Virus record (IMG/VR): IMGVR_UViG_3300025617_000007
Coordinates: 62,001 to 126,000 of that record
Direction: 5' to 3' (one strand)
From: a virus
Length of the DNA: 64,000 nt
Below the pieces are notes generated by a model. That model was given only the letters and a program-made list of their open reading frames with translations. It did not search any database and was not told the DNA's origin. Position numbers and translations under genes: made by a program. Below are positions 3,352-37,503 of the stretch, in pieces (position 1 is the stretch's first letter; each line of letters begins with the position of its first letter).

Positions 3352-4203
3352 TTAAATTTCTTTTTTATCTCCTCCTTTAGTTAAATAAGTTCTTACTGGT
3401 TTATCTTCATACTCATTATCTAGAAATGCTTTAATTTTTTCTACATTTCCTGGGTCATCGTCAGAAAACCCTATCATTGGTATAAAATTATTTTTAACAT
3501 CATTTTTAAGGAAAGCTCTTTTTCCTAATCTCTCACTCATACTTTTAACGTAAGTGATAAATTCTCTTAAAGCCTTTATTTTACCTTCCTCAGGATTTGA
3601 CGCTGAACCCTCCCCATAAGTTACAGGATAATATTTACAAAGGTCCAAATATTCATTAATCATTGTTTGACCATCTTTGGACACATCCCCTGTCATATTT
3701 CTGTATTTTTTTAAATTCTCAATAAGGGTATCTTTACTAATACCATTATGTTCGGTAACTATAAAATTATAAATGGACTCTCTAAGAACTGAAGGTGTAT
3801 GACCTCTAGCAGTGATAATTGCAAAGATTGAACCTCCATTTATACATTCTACAAAATCATCCCAAGACGGTCCGATAGTTGCCATCATTGAGTCAATAAT
3901 AAAAGCATTGTCTCCTTTTACTCCGAAATTTCTATATGGGTCACTAGCATAACCAACAATCATAGTGTTTTTATACTCAAAAGGTTCTTTACCTATCATT
4001 GCACGGTAATCTGCAAAGTCTTCCGTAGACATTCCGATTTCTTCATCGTTTTCACTTAAAAGAATAATTTGAGTCGGCATCGTTACGATATTATCGTCCC
4101 AATCAAAGGCATAATATTTTAAATCTGGATTACCCTCAGTGTCGAAACCTTCTTTTAATTGTTTTTCTTCGATGAATTCTCTTATGATTCTTTTAATCGA
4201 CAT
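3352..4203 (-). CDS. HAD-superfamily phosphatase with possible capsid-targeting leader
   Basis: 283 residues. HAD motifs are visible in order: motif I FDWDDN (nucleophile Asp34, general acid Asp36), motif II ITARG near residue 130, a Lys-containing region (LGKRAFLKNDVKNN), and motif IV GFSDDDPGN near 245. The substrate cannot be told from the sequence. The first 19 residues (MSIKRIIREFIEEKQLKEG) form a basic amphipathic helix containing IEE and LKE, the (I/L)xE pattern cut by T4-type prohead protease, so the enzyme may be packed in the head (inference). It lies between sheath and tail tube genes and shares a TAATG overlap with the small gene upstream. HAD proteins with unknown substrates are common in T4-like marine phages. 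Confidence 0.8.
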   Translation of the reverse strand: MSIKRIIREFIEEKQLKEGFDTEGNPDLKYYAFDWDDNIVTMPTQIILLSENDEEIGMSTEDFADYRAMIGKEPFEYKNTMIVGYASDPYRNFGVKGDNAFIIDSMMATIGPSWDDFVECINGGSIFAIITARGHTPSVLRESIYNFIVTEHNGISKDTLIENLKKYRNMTGDVSKDGQTMINEYLDLCKYYPVTYGEGSASNPEEGKIKALREFITYVKSMSERLGKRAFLKNDVKNNFIPMIGFSDDDPGNVEKIKAFLDNEYEDKPVRTYLTKGGDKKEI

Positions 4204-11833: not shown

Positions 11834-11841
11834 TATTTATA
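11834..11841 (+). promoter_or_regulatory. Late-promoter-like box TATTTATA (SOD fusion)
   Basis: Exact TATTTATA, 15 bases before the ATG at 11857, in the 41-base gap after the helicase gene. It suggests late, virion-type timing for the superoxide dismutase fusion. Confidence 0.55.
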
Positions 11842-11856: not shown

Positions 11857-13422
11857 ATGAAGTTCAAAAGATTAAAAGAAAAAATCTCATTAGTTGAACA
11901 TAAAATTAATAAGAGCCAAGATAACAAAACCCTCGTTTCAGAGATATCTGCGCAAACCTCAAAATATATTATTACAGAGATGAAAAAAATTGGTATTGAA
12001 AAACTACCATATTCTTATTCTGCCTTAGAAAGATTCATAGATTCAGACACTATGGATACTCACTATAACAAACACTATAAAGGATATGTAAAAAAATTAA
12101 ACGACGCATTAGAGAAAACTAAAGATGGTGATTTAGAATTAGAACAAATTATTAAAGGTATTTCACGATATAACACCACTATTAGAAATAATGCTGGAGG
12201 TGCATTTAACCATGCACTTTTTTGGAAAATGTTATCTCCAAAAAAACAAAGAGCTCAAGGAGAGGTGTATGAAAAAATAGTAAAAGATTTTGGAAATTTT
12301 TCTAAATTTAAAAACATCTTTACTGTTGAAGCTAAGAAACGTTTTGGTTCAGGATGGGTTTGGTTAGTATTAACTAAATCAGGAAAATTAAAAGTTATGT
12401 CCACTCCAAATCAAGATAACCCTTTAATGAATATTGTTAAAAATGGAGGTTTCCCTATATTAGGTTTAGATGTTTGGGAACACGCGTATTACTTAAAATA
12501 TAAAAATAAAAGGGATGAATATATTAAAAACTTTTGGTCTGTAGTAAATTGGGATTTTATAAATGACTTATACAATCTAAGAACTGATAAAAAAATCGAT
12601 GAGGTTAAAAAAGTTAAAACAATTATTACCGAAGGAGCGAGTGCGGGTTGTAATAGAAGTCAGGTTCAGAACTATAGAAGATTATTTAATACTAACCCTC
12701 AAATTAAAAAGAAATTTATGTTCACCATTATGGACATACTTAAAGAGGTTTTTTCAGAGTACTGGTACGAAAAAAATCAATACGATAAAGGTCAAATGTC
12801 AGGGATTTATGATTACGAACAAAAAGGTCGTTCAGTAATTAATAAACTTAACACAAATTACACCGCATTTTGTACTTTAGTAAACGATGTAAATCAATTT
12901 TTAAGAAAATACGGTATAGATGCAATCAATTTTAATAACAAAAATAATCAACAACAAATAAAAGAAGTTGAAAAATTAAATAAATATTTAATTGAGTTAC
13001 GGTACAGAATATTCGACTCAGAGTCACCCACCTTTAAAACGTTAATGGCAGGTTTAGATAAGACAAATAAATTTGGAGACAAAAGAGAAGTTGATGCGGT
13101 TGTAGGGTTAAAAGATATTTTTAAAACTGATAAGGTAACTAAAGTCGGTGAATTAGGTGGTGTTGATGATATGATAGGTGGAGTTGATGCCATTGTAGAA
13201 TTACCTGAAGGGACGAAAACAATGCAAATAAAACCATTTAACAATACCAAAAATACTAATGGGAAGATAACTGTTTTTGGGACTGGTAATGTTAAACCCT
13301 ACAAAACTGACTATTTAGTTTTTCACAATAACAAATTAGGTACGTTAGTGTTTGAAAACTCTAATACGAAAATTATTGACGGGAGATATGTTTTTGATGA
13401 GACATCCCAATACGTAAAGTAA
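11857..13422 (+). CDS. Mn-type superoxide dismutase fused to a C-terminal nuclease-like domain
   Basis: 521 residues. Residues 45-242 are a full Fe/Mn superoxide dismutase: metal ligands His69 (in THYNKHY), His119 (in NHALFW), Asp205 and His209 (DVWEHAYY). NNAGG (111-115) and Gln187 (STPNQDNPL) favour the Mn type. The enzyme converts superoxide to oxygen and hydrogen peroxide. Residues 250-521 are not SOD. After a helical linker, GGVDAIV (Asp444) and MQIKP (Gln457-Ile-Lys459), with Glu432 upstream, resemble a PD-(D/E)xK nuclease core, but this is only a pattern. The first 20 residues (MKFKRLKEKISLVEHK) form a basic helix with LKE and LVE, matching the possible capsid-targeting leaders elsewhere. 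Normal SODs are about 200 residues. A late-type box lies upstream. Confidence 0.88.
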   Translation: MKFKRLKEKISLVEHKINKSQDNKTLVSEISAQTSKYIITEMKKIGIEKLPYSYSALERFIDSDTMDTHYNKHYKGYVKKLNDALEKTKDGDLELEQIIKGISRYNTTIRNNAGGAFNHALFWKMLSPKKQRAQGEVYEKIVKDFGNFSKFKNIFTVEAKKRFGSGWVWLVLTKSGKLKVMSTPNQDNPLMNIVKNGGFPILGLDVWEHAYYLKYKNKRDEYIKNFWSVVNWDFINDLYNLRTDKKIDEVKKVKTIITEGASAGCNRSQVQNYRRLFNTNPQIKKKFMFTIMDILKEVFSEYWYEKNQYDKGQMSGIYDYEQKGRSVINKLNTNYTAFCTLVNDVNQFLRKYGIDAINFNNKNNQQQIKEVEKLNKYLIELRYRIFDSESPTFKTLMAGLDKTNKFGDKREVDAVVGLKDIFKTDKVTKVGELGGVDDMIGGVDAIVELPEGTKTMQIKPFNNTKNTNGKITVFGTGNVKPYKTDYLVFHNNKLGTLVFENSNTKIIDGRYVFDETSQYVK

Positions 13423-13441: not shown

Positions 13442-13449
13442 TATTTATA
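13442..13449 (+). promoter_or_regulatory. Late-promoter-like box TATTTATA (gp13)
   Basis: Exact TATTTATA, 13 bases before the gp13-like ATG, in the short gap after the SOD fusion. Confidence 0.55.
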
Positions 13450-13462: not shown

Positions 13463-14575
13463 ATGTCAGTAATTAACGAACCTCAAAGAACAAAACTTTA
13501 CACAAGAGTAAAACACCTTTTAGGTGCACCCATTCGTAGTATAGAAATAGAAGATGAAATGATGGATTCCTTATTGGAATTATCGATTCAAGATTATGCA
13601 CAATACGTAAATGATTGGTTAATTGAATCTCAGTGGACTTCACTCTATGGGATGAACTTAGATGAACAATCTGTAACTCGAGCATTTACTACGCGTTCTT
13701 TAGATTGGGAAACACAATATACTTATGCCTATTCTAAAATTGTCGGATTACAAGCTGGTGGTGACTATGTACTTAAGAAAGACTACATTACTTTAGTACC
13801 TGGACAACAGATATATGAAATACCTAAAGGTCGTGAATTAAATGAACTTTTATGGTTTACACGTGCAGAATTAGATGCGGCTTTCTTTGACCCATTTATG
13901 GGTGGTTTTGGAGGTATGGGTGGTGTTGGATTAGGTGGAGGTGCTGGATTCTCACAAATGGGTACTACAGGTAATTACTTTGTAACTCCGGCATTCGACA
14001 TTCTACTTAGAATGCAAGACATTAATGTTAAAAGAAGAATCATTTCAGGAGAGTTAACTTATCGTGTTACTGCACTTCCAGACGGTAAAAAGGCTGTACA
14101 CTTAATGAATGTTCCCGGTGGAAAATTTGATTTTGGTAATATACAACATAACGAATATAAAGTATGGTATTGGTACTACGAAACTGATGACCGTGAAGAT
14201 TGTTTAGCTAAAAATCCTGATATTGTTCGTTTACCTTCAGATATTCCTATTGATGAAATGAAATGGGATGAACTTAATAGTCCCGCACAGACATGGGTTA
14301 GAAAATGGTTCGTTTCATATGTTAAAGAAACTTTAGGTAGAGTAAGAGGTAAATTTAGTGGTAATTTAAAAACACCTGACTCGGAATTACAACTAGAATA
14401 TGATTCTTTATTAACTGAAGCTAAAGATGAAAAATCTAAGTTATCTGAAGAGTTAACACAAAAACTTGAAAGGTTAAGACCTGAAAAAATGATGGAAAGA
14501 GAAGCGAATGTTGCTGAAAATCTAAATAAATCATTACAATTCCGTGCTATGCCACGACAGATATATGTAATATAA
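13463..14575 (+). CDS. Neck protein, gp13-like
   Basis: 370 residues (T4 gp13 has 309). The N-terminal helix pattern (KHLLGAPIRSIEIEDEMMDS, then LELSIQDYAQYVNDWL) is the conserved 'LG.p...iEl.de.l...l..al..Y' start of the gp13 neck family. The C-terminal WVRKWFVSYVKETLGRVRGK segment is also conserved. A Gly-rich loop near residues 145-170 (GGFGGMGGVGLGGGAG) is an unusual flexible insertion. With gp14 it seals the filled head and provides the tail-docking surface. The partner gp14-like gene is 3.5 kb away on the other strand. Confidence 0.8.
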   Translation: MSVINEPQRTKLYTRVKHLLGAPIRSIEIEDEMMDSLLELSIQDYAQYVNDWLIESQWTSLYGMNLDEQSVTRAFTTRSLDWETQYTYAYSKIVGLQAGGDYVLKKDYITLVPGQQIYEIPKGRELNELLWFTRAELDAAFFDPFMGGFGGMGGVGLGGGAGFSQMGTTGNYFVTPAFDILLRMQDINVKRRIISGELTYRVTALPDGKKAVHLMNVPGGKFDFGNIQHNEYKVWYWYYETDDREDCLAKNPDIVRLPSDIPIDEMKWDELNSPAQTWVRKWFVSYVKETLGRVRGKFSGNLKTPDSELQLEYDSLLTEAKDEKSKLSEELTQKLERLRPEKMMEREANVAENLNKSLQFRAMPRQIYVI

Positions 14576-24906: not shown

Positions 24907-25647
24907 ATGAAGTCATATCTTTATAAAACAGAAGAAGGTGCGAAGAATGCCTCCAAAGAGTTAGGATGTAAAGGTTTTCACAAACACAAAAGAAAAACTT
25001 TTATGCCTTGCTCAACACATAAGGAGTTTTTAGATAAAAGTAAATCTCAAAAACCCGAAGGTGAAATAGATGAATTAATTGATTATGATGGTACAATGTT
25101 AAATTCAAAAGTACCTATTCTCGACCCTCACGTAACTGCTAAAGGTGATGATACTATGGATAAAACGGTTGCAATGGCTCGTATCACCCAAGACCCACTA
25201 ACTAGAGGTTATAGAGTGTACTATGGAGAATCAGTAGTAAGAGAAGAAGATATGGAAGACGCTTTTGGTTTTGAGGAAACTAAGTTTATGGATGCCGAAG
25301 AAACTGTAGATTACTTCATGAGTGAATTAGGTTTTGACGAAATTGATGCTGAAGGTAGGGCAGAGGAAATGGGAAAAGACCCTAAATTAGATGATAGCTC
25401 TCAATATAAAAGTAAGAAAAACTTTGTAATGAAAGGTCGTTTAACGGAAAAAGGTAAAGTATTAAGTAAAGAAGAAATATTAAAAATGGGTGAAGACTCT
25501 TTAGTTGGTAAAACAGATAGTAGAGATATTAAAATGACAAAAGAAATTTCACCAATACTTAAAAGAAATATTAAAGCACTTAAGAAATTGGCAGTTATGG
25601 ACGGAGTATCTACCAACGAATTAATTAAGATGTTAAAAAATGAATAA
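24907..25647 (+). CDS. Conserved phage protein with 'MPCxTH' motif
   Basis: 246 residues from ATG 24907; a longer frame from 24853 crosses the divergent promoters and is rejected. The N-terminus has a His/Cys block (GCKGFHKHKRKTFMPCSTH) of a type seen in large-phage and giant-virus virion proteins, perhaps a metal-binding module. The middle is acidic (residues ~105-165). The C-terminal helix (ILKRNIKALKKLAVMDGVST) is basic. First gene of an operon of five small genes with 1-8 base overlaps. Function unknown. Confidence 0.65.
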   Translation: MKSYLYKTEEGAKNASKELGCKGFHKHKRKTFMPCSTHKEFLDKSKSQKPEGEIDELIDYDGTMLNSKVPILDPHVTAKGDDTMDKTVAMARITQDPLTRGYRVYYGESVVREEDMEDAFGFEETKFMDAEETVDYFMSELGFDEIDAEGRAEEMGKDPKLDDSSQYKSKKNFVMKGRLTEKGKVLSKEEILKMGEDSLVGKTDSRDIKMTKEISPILKRNIKALKKLAVMDGVSTNELIKMLKNE

Positions 25648-26104
25648 AGATTTATACGATAAAAAAGTTAAGTTACCTGACTCATTAAAAAGTCATCTTT
25701 CAAAAAGTTTTGAAATGGTTGAGGCTGATAGTAACACTGAAGGGTTCAATAGAAATAAAGAACTTAGAGATAGTGGTATTATGACTTACCAACAACTTAA
25801 AAGAGTAAAAAACTGGTTTGATGGTTATGATGGGGATAAAAAAGACGCCCCTTTTATATTAAATGGTGGCGAAAGAATGCAAAAATGGTGTAGTCACGTA
25901 TTGGACCATTGGAGGAATACCATTGAGAGTGGTAAAAAAGCCAAATCTGAAACGGGTATGGAAAATGAATATATTCAAAATCATACTAAAGATGGAATAG
26001 TTGTTAACCCTAATGATAAACACGAAAAAGGTATTAACAAATACGACACTGCAGTGACGGAACAAATTAAACAAATAAACTCAATAATGAAAACATTATT
26101 ATAA
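25640..26104 (+). CDS. Conserved hypothetical phage protein
   Basis: 154 residues, overlapping the upstream gene by 8 bases. A central block (GIMTYQQLKRVKNWFDGYDG, then APFILNGGERMQKWCSHVL) is well structured and resembles conserved proteins of unknown function in large T4-like phages. Helical and soluble. No catalytic motif seen. Confidence 0.6.
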   Translation: MNKDLYDKKVKLPDSLKSHLSKSFEMVEADSNTEGFNRNKELRDSGIMTYQQLKRVKNWFDGYDGDKKDAPFILNGGERMQKWCSHVLDHWRNTIESGKKAKSETGMENEYIQNHTKDGIVVNPNDKHEKGINKYDTAVTEQIKQINSIMKTLL

Positions 26105-26397
26105 TGGCAAAACAAAACGATAAAATACAATTTGACCAGCCAGACAATAGTTTGTCTGCAATTGCTGAAGCGGAAAGAAGTAAACTATTTCCGAAAAATG
26201 ATTTTTCACCTAAAAGTGATGCGTACTCACCACAACACCCTGATGCTATGGCTGATGGAGATGGGATAGGTAGAGGTACTGCTAAGTTCTTAGATGTGTA
26301 CAACGAAAACGCTGGTACATCGACAGATATTCAAGAAAGAATAGGTGATATTAAGATTAATAAATTTAATTCAAGTAAGACATACCCTAACTTTTAA
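26104..26397 (+). CDS. Small hypothetical protein
   Basis: 97 residues, coupled to its neighbours by TAATG overlaps at both ends. Polar and low in hydrophobic residues, with DGDGIGRGTAKFLDVYN as its most ordered stretch. Probably unstructured or an assembly partner. Not recognised. Confidence 0.5.
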   Translation: MAKQNDKIQFDQPDNSLSAIAEAERSKLFPKNDFSPKSDAYSPQHPDAMADGDGIGRGTAKFLDVYNENAGTSTDIQERIGDIKINKFNSSKTYPNF

Positions 26398-26783
26398 TGA
26401 AACTTTTAGAAACATTTCGAGGACTTATTAATGAGGTTGCGTCCCTTAACGATATACAAAAATCGATTAAGGACAGAAATGTTACGACTATATATTACGA
26501 TGGTGACAATCCTGGAGGTACAGGTATTAGAGAAATTGAACCTGTTTGTGTTGGTTACAGTAAAGCAGGTAATTTAGTATTAAGAGCGTGGGACCTCGAA
26601 GGTGCGTCCCACACTGCCACAATCGGAGAAAAACCCTTACCGGGTTGGAGACTTTTCCGTGTAGACAAAATCTTTACTTATAAACCAACTATGGATACAT
26701 TTAATGAACCTAGACCTGGTTATAACCCTAATGGTGATAAAAGTATGTCTAGCGTAATTTTAAACGCAAAATTTAACACATAA
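26397..26783 (+). CDS. WYL-like domain protein with capsid-targeting-like leader
   Basis: 128 residues. Residues ~28-95 have the strand order of an SH3-like WYL domain: TTIYYDGDNPGG, IREIEPVCVGYSKAGNLVLR, and GWRLFRVDKI at the end. WYL domains usually bind ligands or nucleic acid in regulators. The leader MKLLETFRGLINEVAS closely follows the T4 internal-protein leader pattern (MK..E.F...I.E) and has the site LINE|V, the same LINE that precedes the predicted cut in the major capsid protein. It is the clearest candidate here for an internal head protein. TAATG-coupled to the upstream gene. Confidence 0.65.
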   Translation: MKLLETFRGLINEVASLNDIQKSIKDRNVTTIYYDGDNPGGTGIREIEPVCVGYSKAGNLVLRAWDLEGASHTATIGEKPLPGWRLFRVDKIFTYKPTMDTFNEPRPGYNPNGDKSMSSVILNAKFNT

Positions 26784-26787
26784 GATA

Positions 26788-27381
26788 ATGAGTAATTTAA
26801 TGGAAAAATTAGCCATATCTAAAAAGATAATGGACAAACATAACGAAGTTCCAAGAAGTGGGATGTCAGGTGATTTACCTATGAATGATAACGTAAATGC
26901 AACATATAATATCCCTGATAGTGTTATGGAGCAGACTCAACAACCTATTAAACAACCTATTAATAATACAGTCCAAATGAATCAACCGGTAAGTGAAGAT
27001 GCAATTAAAAATTCTAAACTACCTGATGAGATTAAAAAATTAATGATGGAAAATCCTATCTCCCAACCACAAATGGGTGGACCTGTATTATCTGATGAAC
27101 TTATAGAGGGAGCAACTAGATTAATGGGAACATCTAAAAATCCTATTAATGAAACACAAAGACCTAATCATACTACTCAAACTAATACGAGCAATTCTGA
27201 TTTAAAACAAATGATTAGGGATGTTGTGAGAGACACGGTAAGAGATGTGATTAAAGAAGAATTACAAAGTGCAGGTTTAATATCTGAATCATCACAAAAA
27301 ACAAACGAAACATTATCACTTAGAGTAGGTAAACACGTATTTGAAGGAAAAGTTTTAAAGATTAAAAAAGTAAAACAGTAA
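26788..27381 (+). CDS. Hypothetical protein with C-terminal coiled coil
   Basis: 197 residues. The first 130 are Pro/Asn/Gln/Met-rich and probably disordered (QPIKQPINNTVQMNQPV). A helix of heptads follows (LKQMIRDVVRDTVRDVIKEE), then a basic beta-ending LRVGKHVFEGKVLKIKKVKQ. The coiled coil suggests an oligomer. It is the last gene before the glycan island. Function unknown. Confidence 0.55.
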   Translation: MSNLMEKLAISKKIMDKHNEVPRSGMSGDLPMNDNVNATYNIPDSVMEQTQQPIKQPINNTVQMNQPVSEDAIKNSKLPDEIKKLMMENPISQPQMGGPVLSDELIEGATRLMGTSKNPINETQRPNHTTQTNTSNSDLKQMIRDVVRDTVRDVIKEELQSAGLISESSQKTNETLSLRVGKHVFEGKVLKIKKVKQ

Positions 27382-27438
27382 TAGACCTTTTCTTATCCTA
27401 TTTTTTTACTTATACTTTGTCTAAAACTTATTAAGTAT

Positions 27439-28644
27439 ATGGCAAAGATTAAAATATTAGTATTACCCTCAGACAGGACTGGGGTTGGTAAGTTTCGTTC
27501 CGTTGAACCACATATCTTCTTACAAAACAAATATCCTGAAGACTTTCATGTAGATATAGACTACGAACCAAAAATTGATGACGATAATTATTGGAAGAAT
27601 TACGACATCGTTCATTTCCACAGAACAATAACAAAAGATTATGATAGTACTCCCGCACTTTTAGAGAAACTAAATAAATGGGGAATTACTACTATTGGTG
27701 ATATTGATGATTATTGGTTACCTTCTCGTGAACATCCTGCACATGCAATGATAATGAATAGTAAACTTCATTTAAAGATTGTTAAAAATTTAAAATCCGC
27801 ACAATACGTTACTACCACAACCCCATTGTTTGCTCAGGAAATCAAAAAAATTAATAAAAATGTAATTGTATTACCAAATGCGATTAACCCTAATGAACCT
27901 CAATTTCAAGAAAAAACAAAACCTTCAGATAAGTTACGATTCGGATGGTTAGGTGGTTCATCACACTTACATGATTTAAAATTATTGGGTGGTACTTTTG
28001 GACTTCTTTCATCATTAAAAGACCAATACGACTTATATCTATGTGGGTTTGACACTAGAGGTACTGTTACCGAAATAGATAATAGAACAGGTCAACAAAG
28101 ACAAAGACCTATTAAACCTGAGGAAACTGTATGGGCACAATACGAACAAATATTTACAAGTAATTATAAGTTAATTGATGAAGACTACAAAAAGTTTCTT
28201 TTAAATTATACACAGGGACAATACCCTAATGAGAAATTTTATCATAGAGTTTGGACCGCACCTGTAACTTCATATGCTAAGAATTATTCTAAGTTTGATG
28301 TATCGTTAGCACCAATCAAGAACCACTTATTCAATAGAATGAAATCACAACTTAAAGTGATTGAGGCAGGTTTTTATAAAAAAGCAATTATAGCTTCAAA
28401 TGTCGGACCTTACACGATAGATTTGACACATTCATTGAAAAATGGTAACTTTGTTGATGGAAATGCTTTATTGGTAAACGAAACAAGAAATCACGGAGAT
28501 TGGTCTAAGTTTATGAAAAAACTCATAAACAACCCTTCATGGGCTGAAGATTTGGGTGAAAGATTATATGAGACCGTTAAAGATACTTATGACTTAAATA
28601 ACGTAACCGATACAAGAGCACAATTTTATAAATCCTTAATATAA
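27439..28644 (+). CDS. Glycosyltransferase, GT4-like (GT-B fold)
   Basis: 401 residues. The N-terminal Rossmann half has IVHFHRT and DIDDYW. The C-terminal half has RFGWLGGSSHLHDLK, DLYLCGFDT and VSLAPIKNHLFNRMKSQLK, then KVIEAGFYKKAIIASNVGPY, the nucleotide-sugar binding E-x7-type region of GT4-like enzymes. It transfers a sugar from an activated donor; donor and acceptor are unknown. First gene of the glycan island. The 57-base leader has no TATTTATA box, which suggests different (early or middle) timing from the structural genes. Confidence 0.85.
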   Translation: MAKIKILVLPSDRTGVGKFRSVEPHIFLQNKYPEDFHVDIDYEPKIDDDNYWKNYDIVHFHRTITKDYDSTPALLEKLNKWGITTIGDIDDYWLPSREHPAHAMIMNSKLHLKIVKNLKSAQYVTTTTPLFAQEIKKINKNVIVLPNAINPNEPQFQEKTKPSDKLRFGWLGGSSHLHDLKLLGGTFGLLSSLKDQYDLYLCGFDTRGTVTEIDNRTGQQRQRPIKPEETVWAQYEQIFTSNYKLIDEDYKKFLLNYTQGQYPNEKFYHRVWTAPVTSYAKNYSKFDVSLAPIKNHLFNRMKSQLKVIEAGFYKKAIIASNVGPYTIDLTHSLKNGNFVDGNALLVNETRNHGDWSKFMKKLINNPSWAEDLGERLYETVKDTYDLNNVTDTRAQFYKSLI

Positions 28645-28649
28645 TATAT

Positions 28650-29351
28650 ATGATTAATTTACCTTTAAATAAACTTTTATTTTTCGATTTAGAAACTGTT
28701 GGTATTGAGAAAGATTTACCAACATTAAAAAAGAATAGACCAGAATTAGCAAGACTTTTTGATAGTTATGTGGATTGGTTTAAGAAAAAATACCCTGACC
28801 AAATTGATAATACACCTGAGGAAATTTTTATTAATAAAGCGGCTTTAGTTGCTGAGTTCTCTAAAATTATTGTCGCTTCATTCTCATTTATAACCCCAAA
28901 GAACGAGATTCATACTCAAACAATTGCTGAGGATGATGAAAAAGAGCTATTGATACAGGTTAGAGAATTATTAGATAAGGTAGATAAGTTCGATTTTTAC
29001 CTATGTGGTCACAATATCAAATTTTTTGATATACCCACATTAGGTAAGAGATTTTTAACTAATAATATTTTACCTCCAAAAATATTACCAAATTACGATA
29101 CTAAACCATGGGAAATCAAAGCGGTAGATACCAAAGAAGTGTGGCAATTTGGTAATAACTTTGGTATATCATCATTAGATTTAATGTGTGTATCAATGGG
29201 TGTTGATAGTCCTAAAACAGGTGAAGTGTCGGGTAACTTAGTTCATGATACGTATTGGAACGCAAACGGGTTATCACCAATTGCAGATTACTGTGAGAAA
29301 GACGTTACAGTTTTAATTGAATTAATGAGAAAAATTTATAATTTAAAATAG
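28650..29351 (+). CDS. 3'-5' exonuclease, DnaQ-like (DEDDy)
   Basis: 233 residues. Motifs: Exo I LFFDLET (Asp13, Glu15), Exo II CGHNIKFFDIP, and Exo III YCEKDV, the Y-x3-D arrangement of DEDDy nucleases. It resembles the exonuclease part of family B polymerases and related free-standing phage nucleases. It may process nucleic acid ends or degrade host DNA, somewhat as T4 DexA does. It starts 6 bases after the glycosyltransferase and lies 4 bases before the dUTPase. Confidence 0.85.
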   Translation: MINLPLNKLLFFDLETVGIEKDLPTLKKNRPELARLFDSYVDWFKKKYPDQIDNTPEEIFINKAALVAEFSKIIVASFSFITPKNEIHTQTIAEDDEKELLIQVRELLDKVDKFDFYLCGHNIKFFDIPTLGKRFLTNNILPPKILPNYDTKPWEIKAVDTKEVWQFGNNFGISSLDLMCVSMGVDSPKTGEVSGNLVHDTYWNANGLSPIADYCEKDVTVLIELMRKIYNLK

Positions 29352-29354
29352 AAT

Positions 29355-29954
29355 ATGTTTAATAAGATAAAAGATTTTAAGGATAGCATGTCCAAATTAG
29401 GTGAATTAAAAGAAAAATTAGGTTCAGTTGACATGACGGACCCTAAAACAATGATGGATTCTTTCGGTATTGATTATGAAGAGTTAGAAAAAAACTTTGA
29501 AGAACAGTATTATAAGACTCCTGAGATTGAATATGTTTATAAATCGGTAAATCCTGAACCTAAGTACCACTACGGTAGTGATTCAGGATTTGACTTAAGA
29601 GCTAACGAAAAAGTAACACTAAAACCATTAGAAAGGGCTTTAGTGTCAACAGGTTTACATATAAACGTACCTGCTAGACATGAAGTACAGGTAAGACCTA
29701 AGAGCGGATTGGCAATTAAGAAAGGTTTAACTGTCCTTAACACACCAGGTACTGTTGATGAAGGGTATACAGGTGAAATAAAAGTTATACTGATTAATCT
29801 AAGTCAAGAAACTCAAGTAATTGAATTGGGTGACAAAATTGCACAAGCGGTTATCTGTCCTGTAGTTCAAGGAAGAGATGTTATCTTGAAAAGAGTATTA
29901 GAAATAAAAGAAAAAGATAGAAACGAAAATGGATTTGGTTCAACTGGAAACTAA
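29355..29954 (+). CDS. dUTPase with N-terminal extension
   Basis: 199 residues. The five trimeric dUTPase motifs are complete: I SDSGFDLRA (75-83), II RPKSGLA (114-120), III NTPGTVDEGYTGE (129-141), IV ELGDKIAQA (157-165) and V RNENGFGSTG (189-198). It cleaves dUTP to dUMP and pyrophosphate, keeping uracil out of phage DNA and feeding dTMP synthesis. The first ~60 residues are an added acidic/helical region not found in standard dUTPases (about 140-150 residues). The next gene starts inside motif V, a 26-base overlap. Confidence 0.95.
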   Translation: MFNKIKDFKDSMSKLGELKEKLGSVDMTDPKTMMDSFGIDYEELEKNFEEQYYKTPEIEYVYKSVNPEPKYHYGSDSGFDLRANEKVTLKPLERALVSTGLHINVPARHEVQVRPKSGLAIKKGLTVLNTPGTVDEGYTGEIKVILINLSQETQVIELGDKIAQAVICPVVQGRDVILKRVLEIKEKDRNENGFGSTGN

Positions 29955-30333
29955 TACAAGTCCTGTATTAACAGACGAAAGAAAGAATTATTTGATTGAC
30001 ATTGATGGGACCATCACCGATGATGTACCCAACGAAGAACCTGAAAGAATGGTAACCTGTTTACCTTATAAAGGGTCCGTTGAGTTGATTAATGATTGGT
30101 ATAGTGAGGGTCACGTTATAACTTTTTTTACTTCAAGAACTGAAGAACATAGAAGAGTTACCGAAGAGTGGTTACAGAAACATGGATTCTTTTACCATAA
30201 TTTGTTAATGAACAAACCGAGAGGTGGAAATTATCATTGGATTGATAATCATATCGTAAGAGCAACACGATATAATGGTAAATGGACACCACTTACCGAA
30301 AAAGAAACTAAAATACAAGTATTTGACGATTAA
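29929..30333 (+). CDS. HAD-superfamily phosphatase (capsule/polynucleotide phosphatase-like)
   Basis: 134 residues. HAD motif I is LIDIDGTI (Asp24, Asp26), motif II FFTSRTEEHR, and the end has KPRGGNYHWIDNHIV with a Lys and an acidic pair. There is no cap domain. Similar small HADs are annotated as capsular-biosynthesis or LNS2-type phosphatases; a sugar phosphate is plausible next to the glycosyltransferases, but a nucleotide 3' phosphate is also possible. It overlaps the dUTPase by 26 bases and the next gene by 1. Confidence 0.8.
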   Translation: MDLVQLETNTSPVLTDERKNYLIDIDGTITDDVPNEEPERMVTCLPYKGSVELINDWYSEGHVITFFTSRTEEHRRVTEEWLQKHGFFYHNLLMNKPRGGNYHWIDNHIVRATRYNGKWTPLTEKETKIQVFDD

Positions 30334-32516
30334 TGATAACAATAGGATATAGCACAAAGAAAATAGACTCTGAATTTAGAGAGTATATCGAGAAATCATG
30401 TGGATTAAAAAACGTTGAGGTAATCCCATTTGAAAACCCTGGCACTCATTCATTGACCGAAGCATATAATATCATTCTTGAGAAATCGAGCAATGATATT
30501 GTTGTTTTATGTCATGATGACATCTACTTCGAGAAAAATAATTGGGGTAACAAAATATTAAAACATTTTAAAAGAAATCCTGAATACGGTATTATTGGTG
30601 CTGCTGGTTCCAAATATATGCCGAGAACGGGGATGTGGTGGGAAGTTCAATCCGAAATGATTGGTATTGTTAATCACGAACACGAAGGTAAAAAATGGAC
30701 ATCAAAATATAGTGAATCCAAAGGAAATAAATTAGACGATACTGTAATTGTTGACGGTCTTTTTATGGTGGTTAATAAACCAAATCTAAAGGTAAATTTT
30801 AATGAAGATGTTAAAGGGTTTCACTTTTACGAAGTAGATTTTTGTTTTAGGAACTTTTTAGAAGGTGTTAGAGTAGGTGTTTTTTATGACGTTAGGATTA
30901 CTCATAAATCTATCGGTATGACTAATGAACAGTGGGAGAAAAACCGGCAACAATTTGCTAAAACTTATAAAGATAATCTTCCTGTTTTATTACCCACATC
31001 ATTTACAAAAAAAGATGTTAAAAAGAATGAGCCATTAGTAACATTAGCAATGCCAATTTACAATTACGCAAAAAGATTAAACCCAACCCTACATTCTGTT
31101 TTTAATCAAGATTACACCAATTTTGAAATTACATTGGTGAATGATGGTTCTGATGATGAATATTGCTTAATGAAGTTGGATTCTTTAAAAGACCATGACT
31201 CAATTCGAGTTATACATAAAGAAAATACAGGAGTGTCTGATACTCGTAACCGAGCGGTTAAAGAGGGTAAAGGGGAATATATTTTACCTCTTGATGCTGA
31301 TGATATGATATTGCCAGGTTATCTTAAAACCGCAGTAAACATTATTAAGAACAATCCAAAGATTAGTCCCGTATATTGTGATACAATACACATTGGTGAG
31401 ATGCAAGGATTGGAAAAAAGACCTGAGTGGAGTAAAGACCAGCTTATGAGAGGTCCTTTCATCGTCAATAGTTCAATGTACTCTCGTGAATCATATGAGT
31501 ATGTGGGTGGGTACGATACCACACTTCAAGGTTGGGAGGACTATGATTTTTGGATTAGAATGTCAAAAGAAGGATATGAAGGTAAACATATACCAAAAGG
31601 GTTATTTGTTTATTTCCATCATGAAAAAGATGGTTCAGTATCGACTAAAGCAAATGAAAATCAACAAAAACTATACTCTGCAATTATGAATAAAAACTTT
31701 AACACCAAAAATACTTATACTTTTAATAATAGAGTAATAACACCTGATAATACAATGAATTGGGGTGATTTAGTACCATTTAATATAATTGATAATATAT
31801 TTGAACATAATATTAAAAAAGAAGATGTTTTTAATGTTAAACAACCTAACGGTAACTATAACATATATTCAACTGGTAGTGTTATGTTATTCACAAAACC
31901 AAACAGTATTGTTTGGGGGACAGGATGTATCGATAAGGGGATGATAGGTCAAAAACCGTCCAAAGTTTACGCAGTTAGAGGACCTTTAACTCGTGAAGAA
32001 CTTATTAAAAAAGGTATTGAATGTCCTGAAGTATATGGTGACCCGGCATTATTATATCCTCGTTTCTATAATCCTAAAGTTGAGAAGAAATATAAGTGGG
32101 GAATCATACCACACTATATAGAGTTTGAATCGTCAAGAGATAGGGAAGTCCTTAAAAACTTAGAAGAACAAGGAGTTAGAATCATTGATATCTGTTCAGG
32201 AGAAAAAGAGTTTATTAATGAGTTATTAGAAGTTGAAAATGTTCTATCATCTAGTCTACATGGATTAATAATGGCCGACGCGTACGGGATACCGAATGCG
32301 AGAGTTAACATATCAAATAAACTAATTGGTGGACATTTTAAATTTAAAGATTACTATTTATCTATTAATAGAAAAATAGATTTAGGTCTACAATTAAGTA
32401 AACACACTAAAATTAAAGATATTGAAAAACTATATTTTAATACCTCAATTGACTTTGATGGTGATAAATTAATTAACTCGTCCCCTTGGACTCAAAAAAA
32501 AATAACTTATGTATAA
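30333..32516 (+). CDS. Three-domain glycan enzyme: GT-A + GT2 + polysaccharide pyruvyl transferase
   Basis: 727 residues. Domain 1 (about 1-215) is a GT-A fold glycosyltransferase: VVLCHDDIYF (DD at 62-63), IVDGLFMVV and FHFYEVDFCFR. Domain 2 (about 234-450) is a GT2 enzyme: TLAMPIYNYAKRLNPTL, LVNDGSDDE, PLDADDMI (DAD 321-323) and WEDYDFWIRM. Domain 3 (about 465-727) is polysaccharide pyruvyl transferase-like: WGTGCIDKGMIG, VRGPLTREEL, YGDPALLYP and SSSLHGLIMADAYGIP. One chain could add two sugars and a ketal pyruvate. Such a fusion is unusual; these activities are normally separate genes in capsule clusters. Overlaps its neighbours by 1 and 8 bases. Confidence 0.87.
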   Translation: MITIGYSTKKIDSEFREYIEKSCGLKNVEVIPFENPGTHSLTEAYNIILEKSSNDIVVLCHDDIYFEKNNWGNKILKHFKRNPEYGIIGAAGSKYMPRTGMWWEVQSEMIGIVNHEHEGKKWTSKYSESKGNKLDDTVIVDGLFMVVNKPNLKVNFNEDVKGFHFYEVDFCFRNFLEGVRVGVFYDVRITHKSIGMTNEQWEKNRQQFAKTYKDNLPVLLPTSFTKKDVKKNEPLVTLAMPIYNYAKRLNPTLHSVFNQDYTNFEITLVNDGSDDEYCLMKLDSLKDHDSIRVIHKENTGVSDTRNRAVKEGKGEYILPLDADDMILPGYLKTAVNIIKNNPKISPVYCDTIHIGEMQGLEKRPEWSKDQLMRGPFIVNSSMYSRESYEYVGGYDTTLQGWEDYDFWIRMSKEGYEGKHIPKGLFVYFHHEKDGSVSTKANENQQKLYSAIMNKNFNTKNTYTFNNRVITPDNTMNWGDLVPFNIIDNIFEHNIKKEDVFNVKQPNGNYNIYSTGSVMLFTKPNSIVWGTGCIDKGMIGQKPSKVYAVRGPLTREELIKKGIECPEVYGDPALLYPRFYNPKVEKKYKWGIIPHYIEFESSRDREVLKNLEEQGVRIIDICSGEKEFINELLEVENVLSSSLHGLIMADAYGIPNARVNISNKLIGGHFKFKDYYLSINRKIDLGLQLSKHTKIKDIEKLYFNTSIDFDGDKLINSSPWTQKKITYV

Positions 32517-33366
32517 TTTTAATTACCTCTTAAACAAGATAAAAAACTCTGAGTTCATTAAAGAACCTTTTGAACATTTGGATATTCGAAACTTTTTAAG
32601 TGACGAACACTTATCCATTTTAAAAAATAATAAACAAATACATTTTGAAGAGTGCTCTACTCAAGAGCAATTAAGGTCTAACCTAAACAGTAATGGGTTT
32701 ACTCCGACACCATTTCCTGGATGTACAACAAATGAAAACTTATATTTTTCACTACTTAAAGAAAATAAATTAAATCAAATACAAACTGAAGGGGATTCAG
32801 AAGGTGTCGGTATAGCATATGTTTTGAATAAGGTCAATGATGAATTTGTAAAATCTCTATTGAGATTTTTAAATGGTGAAGAGTTTCACAATACACTTAA
32901 AGAAAAGTTTAATATCACCGAACAGACTAGGGTAACCACGAAAATTCAAAAATATTTAACAGGTTATGAAATATCTCCACATCCTGATATTCGACAAAAA
33001 TCTTTAACATATCTATTAAATATCAATAAAGACAATCATAGTGAAAATGACCAAATACATACCGATTTATTATCATTAAAAGAAGATTATAAATTTATTT
33101 ATGATTATTGGGAGAAAAACCCAAGAGAAAATCGTGCATGGGTATCATGGAAATGGTGTGATATAAAAAAGACTATGAGGGAAAATAATAGTATTGTAAT
33201 TTTCAAACCTTCTAACTATTCGTTACACGCTATCAAGTTAAACTATGACCATAAGAAATATCAGAGAACACAAATATATGGTAACCTTATGTTTACTAAA
33301 CCAAAACAATATACACCACAAAAGATTGATAAATTTATTAAGATGATTAATGAAAGTAAAAAATAA
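32509..33366 (+). CDS. 2-oxoglutarate/Fe(II)-dependent oxygenase-like protein
   Basis: 285 residues. The jelly-roll signature is visible: GYEISPHPDIRQKSLTYLLN (iron ligands His158 and Asp160), then FKPSNYSLHAIKL (third ligand His240), with Arg253 in a position to bind 2-oxoglutarate. These enzymes hydroxylate or demethylate small molecules, sugars, proteins or nucleic acids. Lying between a pyruvyltransferase fusion and a sulfotransferase, it may modify a sugar or its carrier, or a side chain of a glycosylated virion protein. The substrate is not deducible. It overlaps the sulfotransferase by 17 bases. Confidence 0.75.
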   Translation: MYNFNYLLNKIKNSEFIKEPFEHLDIRNFLSDEHLSILKNNKQIHFEECSTQEQLRSNLNSNGFTPTPFPGCTTNENLYFSLLKENKLNQIQTEGDSEGVGIAYVLNKVNDEFVKSLLRFLNGEEFHNTLKEKFNITEQTRVTTKIQKYLTGYEISPHPDIRQKSLTYLLNINKDNHSENDQIHTDLLSLKEDYKFIYDYWEKNPRENRAWVSWKWCDIKKTMRENNSIVIFKPSNYSLHAIKLNYDHKKYQRTQIYGNLMFTKPKQYTPQKIDKFIKMINESKK

Positions 33367-33943
33367 ACACATATATTTAATACACATAAATAAATGTGGA
33401 GGTACGTCAATGAAAGGTATTATGTCCAATAAAGACAATGTTACAATACCTAAAAATGATGATATTATTGAACTTAAGAAAAAAGATAAGTGGAAAAACT
33501 CAATTAAAGTTACAATAACACGTAATCCTTATCATCGGATACTTTCATTACATTCAATGTTAATAAGAGATGGAGTTGGAATCACTTTACAGGAGGTTAT
33601 TGATATAATTACTGATGATAGTATTAAATATAAAGTTAAAAATGGTGGACTAAATAAAGGAACTAAACAACATGTCAAAAGACACGGTTTACCAATGACT
33701 CACAAGCATTATGGTGTGGTTAATGAAGACTTGTCCTTGGATGTTGATTATGTATTTAAACTTGAGGAATTACATGACAAGTGGGATGAGTTTAAGGAAT
33801 TAACTGATATTCATTCAGAAATAGTGATACGTAATAAGTCAAATAACAAAAACGATATTACTATATTCAGTGGAGAACAAATTAAAAAAATTAACGAACA
33901 CTATTATAATGATTTTATTTGTTTTAAATATGAAATGATATGA
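33350..33943 (+). CDS. Sulfotransferase (PAPS-dependent, carbohydrate type)
   Basis: 197 residues. The 5'-phosphosulfate loop is HINKCGGTS (12-20), the 3'-phosphate site TITRNPYHRILS has RNPxxR at 58-63, and a terminal 'YYNDFICFKYEM' matches the end of the Sulfotransfer_2 family. It moves sulfate from PAPS to an acceptor, usually a sugar hydroxyl. It is followed directly by GDP-fucose genes, so a sulfated fucose-type sugar is a reasonable guess (inference). Sulfated glycans are common in marine Bacteroidota habitats. It overlaps fcl by 4 bases. Confidence 0.85.
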   Translation: MKVKNKHIYLIHINKCGGTSMKGIMSNKDNVTIPKNDDIIELKKKDKWKNSIKVTITRNPYHRILSLHSMLIRDGVGITLQEVIDIITDDSIKYKVKNGGLNKGTKQHVKRHGLPMTHKHYGVVNEDLSLDVDYVFKLEELHDKWDEFKELTDIHSEIVIRNKSNNKNDITIFSGEQIKKINEHYYNDFICFKYEMI

Positions 33944-34836
33944 GATTAATAACAGGGAACGGATTAGTTGGGTCAGCATTAGATGGTGACGTTAAAATAT
34001 CGTCAGGGCATTTTGATTTAAGAAATACGGAGAGCGTTAAGTCAATGTTTAAATTTTATCAACCAACAGAGGTAATCCACACAGCAGCAAAAGTAGGTGG
34101 ATTGGGTTCAAACATGAAATATAAAGGAGAATACTTTTATGATAACATAATGATGAATACAAATGTCATCGAACAATCAAGACAATCGGGTGTTAAAAAA
34201 TTGGTGTCATTTTTATCCACATGTGTATTTCCTGATGATGTTGAATATCCCTTAACTGAAAAGAAAATACATTTAGGTGAACCTCACTTTTCAAACAACG
34301 CATATGCATATGCGAAAAGAATGGTAGATGTCCAAATCAGGGCATATCGAGAACAATATGGTTTAGAATATAAATCAGTTATACCAACAAACATATATGG
34401 ACCAAACGATAACTTTTCACTAACTCACGGACATGTCATGCCAATGTTAATACATAAAATGTATTTAGCTCAAAAAAACAACACCCCTTTTGAAGTTTGG
34501 GGTTCAGGTAAACCACTTAGAGAGTTTATTTATTCTAAAGATGTTGCAAAACTTACCGAATGGGTTATGAATAATTACGATGAAGATGAACCAATCATAC
34601 TATCCACTTCTCAAGAAATATCAATACGAGATTTAGTTGATTTATTAGTTCAAGAGTTTAACTTTAAAGGCGAAGTAATTTTTGATGGGTCAAAGCCTGA
34701 TGGTCAATTTAGAAAACCATCAGATAACTCAAAAATCAAAAACTACTTACCTGACTTTAAATTCACACCAATAGAGGAAGGTATAAAGGAAACGGTAAAT
34801 TGGTTTATTGAAAATTATGAAACAACAAGAAAATAA
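33940..34836 (+). CDS. fcl: GDP-L-fucose synthase
   Basis: 298 residues. NADP-binding loop TGNGLVGSAL (5-14), HTAAKVGGLGSN (47-58), and catalytic Ser93 and Cys95 (FLSTCVFP) with Tyr122-x3-Lys126 (AYAYAK) match Ser107, Cys109, Tyr136 and Lys140 of the E. coli enzyme in spacing and order. PTNIYGPNDNF is the family's substrate loop. It epimerises and reduces GDP-4-keto-6-deoxymannose to GDP-L-fucose. The gene for the preceding step, gmd, overlaps it by 29 bases downstream. The N-terminal Rossmann strand is a little short (starts MRLITGNG). Confidence 0.92.
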   Translation: MRLITGNGLVGSALDGDVKISSGHFDLRNTESVKSMFKFYQPTEVIHTAAKVGGLGSNMKYKGEYFYDNIMMNTNVIEQSRQSGVKKLVSFLSTCVFPDDVEYPLTEKKIHLGEPHFSNNAYAYAKRMVDVQIRAYREQYGLEYKSVIPTNIYGPNDNFSLTHGHVMPMLIHKMYLAQKNNTPFEVWGSGKPLREFIYSKDVAKLTEWVMNNYDEDEPIILSTSQEISIRDLVDLLVQEFNFKGEVIFDGSKPDGQFRKPSDNSKIKNYLPDFKFTPIEEGIKETVNWFIENYETTRK

Positions 34837-35815
34837 AGTTGCACTAATTACAGGTATTAACGGACAGGACGGTTCATATTTAACAGAATTTTTATTAGAA
34901 AAAGGATATGAAGTTTGGGGGACGATAAAAAGAAATTCTGTTTCTGAGAACCAAACAAATCGATTAGGTGAGACCTACTATAAAATTAAAGATAATTTGG
35001 AGTATGTGGATATGACCGACTTATCTTCACTTCTCAGGATTATTCAAAAATGTAAACCTAATGAGATATACAATCTAGCTGCACAATCACACGTAAGAAT
35101 ATCTTTTGACCAACCAATATATACCGCAAACGTCACAGGTATGGGTTCGTTGAATCTATTGGAGGCAGTTAAATTAATCGACCCAACCATTAAAATATAT
35201 CAAGCATCATCTTCTGAAATGTTTGGTAATAATATAGATGAGGACGGATATCAGCGAGAGACGACACCGATGGACCCAGTATCCCCATATGGATGTTCTA
35301 AGGTGTTTGCATATAACATTAGTAGAAATTATCGTAATTCATACGGTATGTTTATTTCAAACGGAATATTATTTAATCACGAATCCCCAAGACGAGGTAG
35401 TAACTTTGTAACTAATAAAGTTGTTAAAACTGCTGTGGAGATTAAGAAGGGTTTAAGGGACGATTTAGTATTAGGTAATATGGAAGCAACTAGAGACTGG
35501 GGACATGCTAAAGACTATGTTGAGGCTATGTGGTTAATTCTACAACAAGATGAACCTGACGATTACGTATGTTCTACAGGAATCTCACATTCAGTAAAAG
35601 ATTTAGTTACTTATGTTTTTAATAAGTTACATTTAGATATAGATAAACATGTTAAAACAAATAACAAATACTTTAGACCTGAAGAGTTAAAAGACTTAAA
35701 AGGTGATAGTAGTAAATTAAGGAGTAAAACAGGATGGGTACCTAACTATACTTTTGAGAGTATGTTAGATGAAATGATAGATTATTGGATGAAAAAATTG
35801 CCAAGCTTAATTTAA
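34808..35815 (+). CDS. gmd: GDP-mannose 4,6-dehydratase
   Basis: 335 residues. Cofactor loop TGINGQDGSYL (15-25), EIYNLAAQSHV (86-96), catalytic SSSEMFG (134-140), Tyr161-x3-Lys165 (SPYGCSK) and LFNHESPRRG are all present. It converts GDP-mannose to GDP-4-keto-6-deoxymannose, the substrate of the fucose synthase just upstream. Host GDP-mannose would supply the pathway. The start at 34808 lies inside fcl; the ATG at 34817 is an equally good start. One of two adjacent genes that complete GDP-L-fucose synthesis. Confidence 0.93.
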   Translation: MKIMKQQENKVALITGINGQDGSYLTEFLLEKGYEVWGTIKRNSVSENQTNRLGETYYKIKDNLEYVDMTDLSSLLRIIQKCKPNEIYNLAAQSHVRISFDQPIYTANVTGMGSLNLLEAVKLIDPTIKIYQASSSEMFGNNIDEDGYQRETTPMDPVSPYGCSKVFAYNISRNYRNSYGMFISNGILFNHESPRRGSNFVTNKVVKTAVEIKKGLRDDLVLGNMEATRDWGHAKDYVEAMWLILQQDEPDDYVCSTGISHSVKDLVTYVFNKLHLDIDKHVKTNNKYFRPEELKDLKGDSSKLRSKTGWVPNYTFESMLDEMIDYWMKKLPSLI

Positions 35816-35828
35816 ATAAAAAAAATAC

Positions 35829-36545
35829 ATGACAAATAGAACCAAAAAAACAGAAAATAAAGGTAGTAATATGCCTCGTAAAGATTTAATAAACTCAATT
35901 ATTGGTAAAAAACCAAGAAAGAAGTTTTTATCTGAAAGTCAAAAGGAATATTACGATGTCTTAACTAAAAGTGAAATTACGGTATGTACAGGACCTGCAG
36001 GTGTTGGTAAATCGTTTATCGCAATGAAAGCGGCGGTAGAATTACTAATGGACCCTAAGAATTCTTATGAGAAGATTATTATTGTAAGACCAGCGGTAGA
36101 AGCTGAAGAAAAACTTGGTTCACTACCAGGTAACTTGGAGGAAAAATTAGACCCTTATATTTTTCCATCATATTACTTATTAAATAAAATTATAGGTAAA
36201 GAGGCAAGAGAGAAATTAAAAGAAAACGATATTATTGAAGTATTTGCATTGGCATACATGAGAGGTATGAATATCGACAACTCTATATTAATTTTTGAAG
36301 AAGCTCAAAACTCGACACCGTCACAGATGAAACTTCTATTGACAAGAATTGGGTTTAATAGTAAGTTTTTTATATCAGGAGATATTGAACAAACTGATAG
36401 GTACAAAGATAAAACACAATCAGGTCTTTACGATGCGGTTCACAGGTTTCAACAATTAGATGGTGTTGGAACATATTCATTCAATACCGATGACGTAATA
36501 CGAAATCCTTTGATTAGTAAAATATTAAAAAGATACGAAGAATGA
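35829..36545 (+). CDS. phoH: PhoH-like ATPase
   Basis: 238 residues. Walker A GPAGVGKS (55-62), an IIIVRPAVEAEEKLGSLPG block, Walker B-like ILIFEEAQN, and sensor FFISGDIEQTD match the PhoH family, in which QN after the acidic pair and S-G-D are typical. PhoH proteins are common in marine phages; some are ribonuclease/helicase fusions, and the role in phage is unsettled. An in-frame ATG at residue 15 (MPRKDLINS) is a possible alternative start. The gene lies between GDP-fucose and HAD genes and overlaps the latter by 4 bases. Confidence 0.93.
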   Translation: MTNRTKKTENKGSNMPRKDLINSIIGKKPRKKFLSESQKEYYDVLTKSEITVCTGPAGVGKSFIAMKAAVELLMDPKNSYEKIIIVRPAVEAEEKLGSLPGNLEEKLDPYIFPSYYLLNKIIGKEAREKLKENDIIEVFALAYMRGMNIDNSILIFEEAQNSTPSQMKLLLTRIGFNSKFFISGDIEQTDRYKDKTQSGLYDAVHRFQQLDGVGTYSFNTDDVIRNPLISKILKRYEE

Positions 36546-37195
36546 GAATAGCATTTGACATAAATGGAGTTTTAAGAGACACTTTTTTAAAGGCGGAACA
36601 ACTATATCAAAAATTCTATATTGACGAGTTTGAGGAAGAAAAAACCTCATCTTTTAATGAAGATACTGAGGAGTTTACCGAAGAAGTTATGGTGGACGAT
36701 TTTACTTATGAATTAAATCTACCCGTAAAATCTTTAGACAATTTAGAGGATTATTTTAAGTTTAAAACTAAAGACGATTTATTTAACTTTTTTTATGTGG
36801 ATTTCCCTATGCAAATTTTTGGTCATTCCCCATCAATGTCGGTATCAACCTTTAATGTGTTAAATGAAATTTATGAAGAATTAAGGAATGAACACGAAAT
36901 TTTGATTGTTTCGGACGAAATACAAAAATCAAAACCCGCGTCATTATTTTTCCTTTCAAAATACGGATGTTTGGTTGAAAAGATTTTATTTTACTCAAAT
37001 ATAACATTAGATAATATGTGGGATGAAGTAGATGTATTAATTACTGCAAATCCCAACCACATATTAAACAGACCAAAAGATAAAATAACTATAAAATATA
37101 AAACCACATATAATGAAAATATTGAGTCAGAGTATGAAATATCAGATATCTCGGAAATAAGAGAATTATATGAAAAATTAAAGATAGCGAAATGA
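36542..37195 (+). CDS. HAD-like protein with altered motif I (5'-nucleotidase-like)
   Basis: 217 residues. It begins MRIAFDINGVLRDT. Asp6 matches the HAD nucleophile, but the acid two residues later is Asn8 rather than Asp, so phosphatase activity may be reduced or changed. Later segments, EILIVSDEIQKSKPASLFFL and DVLITANPNHI, fit motifs II-IV of 5'-nucleotidase-type HADs. An acidic insertion (residues ~30-55) replaces part of a cap. It overlaps phoH and the next gene by 4 bases each. It could be a nucleotidase or a binding protein. Confidence 0.65.
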   Translation: MRIAFDINGVLRDTFLKAEQLYQKFYIDEFEEEKTSSFNEDTEEFTEEVMVDDFTYELNLPVKSLDNLEDYFKFKTKDDLFNFFYVDFPMQIFGHSPSMSVSTFNVLNEIYEELRNEHEILIVSDEIQKSKPASLFFLSKYGCLVEKILFYSNITLDNMWDEVDVLITANPNHILNRPKDKITIKYKTTYNENIESEYEISDISEIRELYEKLKIAK

Positions 37196-37500
37196 TAGAA
37201 TTATTAGGAGAAAATTATTATGTTGACTTTACTGAGTTGGAAGAGAATATTAATATCCCGAAGACCGAAAAAGAAGTTAATCAAGAAGAAACAGAGGTTG
37301 ATGTGGAACTTCAAGGTGACGACACTCAACATATTAGTATTGTAAAATACGAAACAATAAAAATGATGTTAGAGGTAGTTTTAACAGAAAGAGAAGAATT
37401 AGATGAAAATTTAGGAGTATATAATACTAAAAATTTAAGCCTTCCCTTTAAGATAGCTTTTAATACATTATTAAAACATGGTATAATAAAACACTTATAG
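37192..37500 (+). CDS. Acidic hypothetical protein
   Basis: 102 residues, very rich in Glu (TEKEVNQEETEVDVELQGDD) with a helical C-terminal half (MMLEVVLTEREELDENLGVY). It overlaps the HAD-like gene by 4 bases and precedes a glycosyltransferase by 3. No family recognised. Confidence 0.5.
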   Translation: MIELLGENYYVDFTELEENINIPKTEKEVNQEETEVDVELQGDDTQHISIVKYETIKMMLEVVLTEREELDENLGVYNTKNLSLPFKIAFNTLLKHGIIKHL

Positions 37501-37503
37501 AAT

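Follow-up and report, generated by a model that had tools for sequence, protein, structure and literature searches.

A single gene in a widespread group of uncultured T4-like phages fuses a superoxide dismutase (SOD) to a nuclease-like domain, and the fusion is real and conserved. The best explanation overall, and in our judgement a probable one, is that its product is a cargo polyprotein, made late and targeted to the head of a T4-like phage. The SOD is absent from some orthologues, and the nuclease part belongs to a family with paralogs at other loci in large relatives.

Source phage and relatives

The window, i.e. the whole stretch of DNA analyzed, comprises 64,000 nucleotides (positions 62,001 to 126,000 of IMG/VR virus record IMGVR_UViG_3300025617_000007). 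The source record is 138.6 kb long and has T4-type terminase, portal, sheath, tube and neck genes, as well as genes for a gp21-type protease and a major capsid protein (MCP). By capsid protein, the closest isolates are Flavobacterium phage immuto, Microcystis phage Mel-JY01 and Rhodothermus phage RM378, each below 45% identity, and the host is probably a member of the Bacteroidota. The gene starts with ATG and its frame is uninterrupted. The features first considered are:

11857-13422, + strand: complete open reading frame (ORF) of 521 aa, with leader, Mn-type SOD, linker, helical domain and PD-(D/E)XK-like domain
11998-12564, + strand: Fe/Mn superoxide dismutase, residues 48-236 (Pfam PF00081/PF02777; best PDB entry 6gsc)

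Relatives were gathered by IMG/VR scans with the C-terminal part, which yielded hundreds of matches, and 156 distinct ORFs were extracted. Aligning the full-length SOD forms gave 136 rows, in which the window is present twice (135 distinct sequences, 63 clusters at 90% identity), and the set reaches down to 46% identity with the window protein. Because the C-terminal part was the query throughout, phages of this lineage that have only the SOD could have been missed; a profile of the nuclease alone was too variable for a genome scan. Neither the phage collection nor the isolates nearest by capsid contained a cultured relative with the gene.

The superoxide dismutase domain

The original prediction of a complete Mn-type SOD with four metal ligands holds. 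Both Pfam domains score well above their curated cut-offs (Sod_Fe_N, residues 48-127, E = 2.9e-23, 82.6 bits against 27; Sod_Fe_C, residues 134-236, E = 1.9e-39, 134.3 bits against 20.9), and the nearest solved SOD by sequence is 6gsc (E = 9e-61). The ligands H69, H119, D205 and H209, together with the Mn-type second-sphere residue Q186, are invariant in 135/135 distinct full-length sequences, as is every second-sphere residue checked across the full-length alignment. G115 and Q186 suggest a preference for Mn, and the SOD is very likely active.

The domain shares its fold, all ligands and the Mn-type Q186 and G115 with the Fe/Mn SOD family (PF00081/PF02777, 6gsc), but here a phage leader stands in front and a nuclease-like domain behind, and the sequences fall in a separate phage clade. 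The closest cellular SOD genes are mostly from Bacteroidota, at about 50% identity. All 30 phage SODs sampled form a single clade (support 100/100), apart from 80 mostly Bacteroidota SODs.

A putative PD-(D/E)XK nuclease domain

The chain runs for about 280 residues past the SOD, as originally described, and the nuclease call had been made there from a pattern of an Asp and a Q-x-K motif. We distinguish the following features in this part:

12634-13026, + strand: helical domain, residues 260-390, with invariant C265 and a conserved GRSVINKLNTNY segment
13027-13401, + strand: PD-(D/E)XK-like domain, residues 391-515 (AlphaFold2 and Foldseek; invariant residues)
13087-13089, + strand: E411, putative catalytic Glu of helix 1 (136/136 rows)
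13186-13188, + strand: D444, putative catalytic Asp (136/136 rows)
13225-13233, + strand: Q457-I-K459, putative Q-x-K motif (Q457 and K459 in 136/136 rows)

D444 and Q457-x-K459 have the residues and spacing first reported, to which we add the previously unlisted E411. In the full-length alignment, the conservation check proposed for D444 and K459 found both invariant, and all four residues are unchanged in 135/135 distinct full-length SOD forms. In an AlphaFold2 model of residues 241-521 (39 sequences; pLDDT 86, pTM 0.81), a helical region is followed by a long helix with E411 and then by strands. The predicted elements are a helix at 391-422 and strands at 427-429, 445-449, 452-460 and 486-491; the second of these strands starts just past D444, and the third bears Q457 and K459. 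Foldseek returned I-Ssp6803I (E = 6e-3, probability 1.00) and Hjc resolvases as the best solved matches, at 9-17% identity. The top three PDB entries have probabilities of 0.96-1.00, and no PDB match reached E < 1e-3. Viral models that match the C-terminal domain include several PD(D/E)XK and Holliday-resolvase entries. In the proposed fold check, the best solved matches are thus PD-(D/E)XK nucleases, although AlphaFold2 does not predict the second helix of that fold's canonical core. The C-terminal part very probably adopts a PD-(D/E)XK fold, an assignment that is well supported but not proven.

The DREN domain of SPARDA is an I-Ssp6803I-like, catalytic PD-(D/E)XK domain with residues D41, Q60 and K62, and it has the combination of an Asp and Q-x-K in common with the C-terminal part (PMC12205087). 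In I-Ssp6803I, DREN and Hjc, a helix-borne Glu likewise precedes the Asp and Q-x-K on successive elements, whereas the phage protein has an extra N-terminal helical domain, lacks a predicted second core helix and matches with weak E-values.

Searches of Pfam, PHROG and NCBIfam with the C-terminal part gave scattered non-significant hits and no match at a meaningful E-value, nor any family-library match that would place it in the Hjc sequence family. GTDB genomes contained no relative with the patterns used, and INPHARED phages contained none for the C-terminal part or for one paralog. A gut-phage match (H30, E = 5) was rejected as chance; its ORF resembles a TonB-dependent receptor. The BFVD model of A0A8D9CCA0, a 1113-aa protein of an uncultured marine phage, matches the fold over 265 columns (rmsd 3.1, 24% identity), and the match sits within this much longer protein. 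C265 (12649-12651) is invariant in all SOD forms and is also kept in SOD-less forms, and C339 (12871-12873) is invariant in the 39-row C-terminal alignment.

More distant nuclease members occur at other loci in three large relatives (198-322 kb) and in a 272 kb relative, in frames of 336-383 aa. A profile of four of these paralogs aligned with the C-terminal part over 208 columns (probability 98.7, E = 2e-16); the Glu, Asp and Q-x-K are invariant in four aligned paralogs as well, and the four searched gave no significant family-library match. TATTTAT lies close upstream in 4/5 displayed paralogs, one of which bears the leader MGFKFLKILKTIITE. The motif SILNxFDTN is common to four of the five distant paralogs L352, L353, L354, L355 and L356. 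The helical domain is retained distantly in the paralogs and is also present in the SOD-less orthologues described below.

Orthologues without the SOD

The nearest relatives all carry the SOD, and exceptions, which the original prediction did not include, appeared only in deeper scans. The SOD is absent from 14 distinct relatives. In the 13 SOD-less loci examined, the gene occupies the same locus, with the C-terminal part directly behind a leader of 14-30 aa that mostly ends LSE or LNE. A PF02777 search of 12 records from this group, among them contigs of 308 and 272 kb, gave no match in any. The nuclease is therefore the constant part of the gene and the SOD an optional cassette.

Several candidates were not counted as SOD-less, either because the two halves lie in different frames (L081, L199) or because the SOD part is broken (L088/L275). 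Some metagenomic copies (L081, L199, L088/L275, L079) have frame breaks or a stop in or near the gene, which could reflect sequencing error or decay.

In the neck tree, SOD-less forms are nested among SOD forms, with three label changes, one of them forced by well-supported branches; the root of this tree depends on very long outgroups and is uncertain. Loss of the SOD is favoured over gain because all sampled phage SODs form one clade. One acquisition followed by loss would be the simplest history.

Late-type box and gene neighbourhood

The features that surround the gene are:

11834-11840, + strand: late-type box TATTTAT, 23 bp upstream of the start codon
10052-11815, + strand: helicase-like gene, syntenic upstream neighbour (called from sequence)
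13463-14575, + strand: neck / head-tail adaptor gene (phrog_211, Ad2), syntenic downstream neighbour

The late-type box noted at the outset recurs upstream of the gene in 112/121 distinct relatives, against 0 within-gene control stretches. Across the window, TATTTAT occurs within 60 bp upstream of 17/56 genes, compared with 2.5 expected from base-shuffled upstream sequences. The genes with the box are mostly structural, and none is among those starting at 25640-39380, several of which are glycosyltransferase-like. TATTTAT is likely a late promoter element of this lineage. A near-identical late box (13442-13448) precedes the neck gene. The gene sits between the helicase-like and neck genes in 33/33 SOD-bearing and 13/13 SOD-less loci examined.

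Putative prohead-protease sites in the leader and linker

T4 gp21 cleaves after L/I-x-E, and CTS leaders bring proteins into the head (PMC9026906). We identified the following candidate sites, with the proposed cutter and a control site in the MCP:

11857-11979, + strand: N-terminal leader, residues 1-41, a low-confidence predicted helix that ends I-T-E41, followed by MKK; putative prohead-protease site
12595-12603, + strand: putative prohead-protease site 1 in the linker, I-D-E249 (E249 in 136/136 rows)
12625-12633, + strand: putative prohead-protease site 2 in the linker, I-T-E259, followed by G (E259 in 136/136 rows)
54116-54838, - strand: T4 gp21-type prohead protease, proposed cutter (phrog_207, E = 4.7e-44)
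52157-52165, - strand: I-N-E60 followed by A61 in the MCP (50594-52336), motif control

The suspicion that the leader targets the protein to the capsid is compatible with what we found, as an [I/L/V]-x-E end recurs across relatives. [I/L]xE lies ahead of the SOD in 38/38 diverse rows, mostly 8 residues before a conserved LPY. The motif alone is modest evidence because shuffled leaders often reach it (mean 21/38, maximum 31/38); the leaders are Glu-rich, and so short a motif as L/I-x-E arises often by chance. A strict [IL]-x-E ending occurs in 118/136 rows, and the other 18 end V-x-E, a variant that marks one further clade, except for two cut at an internal Met. The residue after the leader site is usually M, not A, G or S, which counts against cleavage. 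Model confidence in the leader is low (pLDDT < 50 at residues 17-42).

The linker gives a stronger signal of putative cleavage than the leader motif. At the P3 position of site 1 the 136 rows have L (64), I (55) or V (17), and at that of site 2 they have I (74), L (61) or M (1), with mostly G, Q, S, A or T following E259. Most linker columns that flank the two Glu are only 14-75% conserved. Both residues lie in or beside a stretch of reduced model confidence, with pLDDT < 50 at 260-263. Two near-invariant Glu elsewhere, E208 in the SOD active site and E370, likewise have I or L at P3, which means that such a pattern also occurs outside the linker. The invariant linker Glu could instead serve structure or the nuclease. 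The control site is conserved, with INE followed by A in the MCP of 73/73 relatives of the lineage, and the aligned site is also found in isolates (ISE followed by A in Mel-JY01, VSE followed by A in immuto). A polyprotein cut into SOD and nuclease within the prohead is the best fit to these sites and a reasonably probable one. The two invariant linker sites, missing from the original prediction of joint delivery, mean that the enzymes may be delivered apart and not as a fusion.

Other leaders in the window have similar endings. A 505-aa protein encoded beside the capsid gene (48995-50512, - strand) has a late box and a leader, MSKKIIRLTESDLENIVRRIITE followed by Q, that ends I-T-E as in the SOD-nuclease linker; it is another candidate head cargo. 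Leaders ending I-N-E, I-E-E or V-N-E (MKLLETFRGLINE, MSIKRIIREFIEE and ...KKIVNE) occur in the products of 26397-26783 (+ strand), 3352-4203 (- strand) and 61774-62868 (- strand), the second of which heads a protein that is HAD-phosphatase-like by eye.

A proposed mechanism and its alternatives

We hypothesize that the gene is expressed late and that its N-terminal leader would place the protein in the prohead core. The gp21-type protease would then take off the leader by a cut after E41 and, by cuts after E249/E259, release a free SOD (about residues 42-249/259) and a free nuclease (residues 260-521). Both would be retained in the mature head and pass into the cell together with the DNA. There the SOD would scavenge superoxide, and the targets of the nuclease would most likely be host DNA or that of a competitor. 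In this view the SOD would be a dispensable addition to a nuclease of the head, which would need to be inactive or selective while enclosed with the genome. Taking these steps separately, packaging in virions is likely from the sequence features described, division of the polyprotein into two is somewhat less so though still probable, and for ejection of the cargo to act in the new host we see the chances as evenly balanced. The complete proposal, a prohead-loaded polyprotein of two enzymes that the head-maturation protease splits and that are both injected, with an SOD-optional cargo slot and an undescribed nuclease family, falls slightly short of an even chance.

Some of the same observations would suit a nuclease of head assembly that acts near the neck, trimming or resolving DNA as heads are packaged or completed, and that would not be ejected; the SOD would be an accessory. 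DNA trimming and resolving are jobs of T4 gp4 and endonuclease VII at packaging or head completion, and the fixed place of the gene beside the neck gene, the Hjc-like fold matches and the retention of the nuclease part when the SOD is lost all agree with such a role. T4 gp4 is itself a head-related nuclease of PD-(D/E)XK type; we found no sequence link between it and the C-terminal part. The record has zero matches to PF08722 (Tn7 TnsA-like), as would be expected if the fusion did this work, but this negative says little because the control hits were weak and the record may be incomplete. Paralogs elsewhere in some large relatives argue against a head-assembly nuclease, and the nuclease part was not found in immuto, RM378 or Mel-JY01, so it does not perform a general head-completion function. 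We consider this role unlikely, and equally so its corollary that the SOD protects the particle, or the DNA packaged in it, against superoxide in sunlit water.

An unpackaged enzyme that acts late in the cytoplasm, its SOD guarding the infected cell against superoxide and its nuclease degrading host DNA, would need the box alone for its late expression, and other phages do have SOD genes without the C-terminal nuclease part. The Glu of the leader and linker would then be structural. This leaves unexplained the conserved motif at the leader end, the two [ILV]-x-E that stay invariant while the linker around them varies and the 14-30 aa leaders directly before the SOD-less nuclease, and we regard it as decidedly unlikely. 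A selfish, homing-type or otherwise mobile nuclease fused to an SOD is suggested by the best PDB match, the homing endonuclease I-Ssp6803I, and by the paralogs at other loci. Homing endonucleases are intron-encoded and mobile and decay over time, whereas the orthologues here always lie at one locus within a continuous late gene and keep all catalytic residues invariant over deep divergence; this origin is highly improbable.

Relation to known systems and implications

SODs, PD-(D/E)XK domains, T4 capsid-targeted cargo and virion-packaged giant-virus SODs are each already known. From its sequence, the gene appears to be a variant of capsid-targeted cargo in its working, not a proven member of that class. 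It resembles T4 head cargo (IPI-III, Alt) in a leader that ends I/L/V-x-E, a late-type box, a gp21-type protease and the MCP site, but differs in the longer leader of the SOD forms, the extra sites between domains and the enzymatic nature of the putative cargo. Megavirus encodes a Cu,Zn-SOD, and SOD is among the virion-packaged proteins of giant viruses, a precedent for a packaged viral SOD (PMC9405923); the Megavirus enzyme belongs to an unrelated SOD family, in a eukaryotic giant virus, and has no nuclease. The same architecture as in the window protein is found in UniProt A0A6J5L953 (501 aa; 49% identity over 483 columns), a 'superoxide dismutase' of an uncultured Caudovirales phage that is annotated as SOD only, with the nuclease part unnamed. 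We found no description of the SOD-nuclease architecture in the open-access literature, to which the search extended.

The nuclease part defines a family unmatched in Pfam, PHROGs and NCBIfam, with paralogs in large relatives. If the proposed mechanism is correct, the head-maturation protease of a T4-like phage would also serve to process multi-enzyme cargo. Aquatic Bacteroidota phages would then deliver an antioxidant enzyme at entry, which would suggest that superoxide is a hazard or a defence early in infection.
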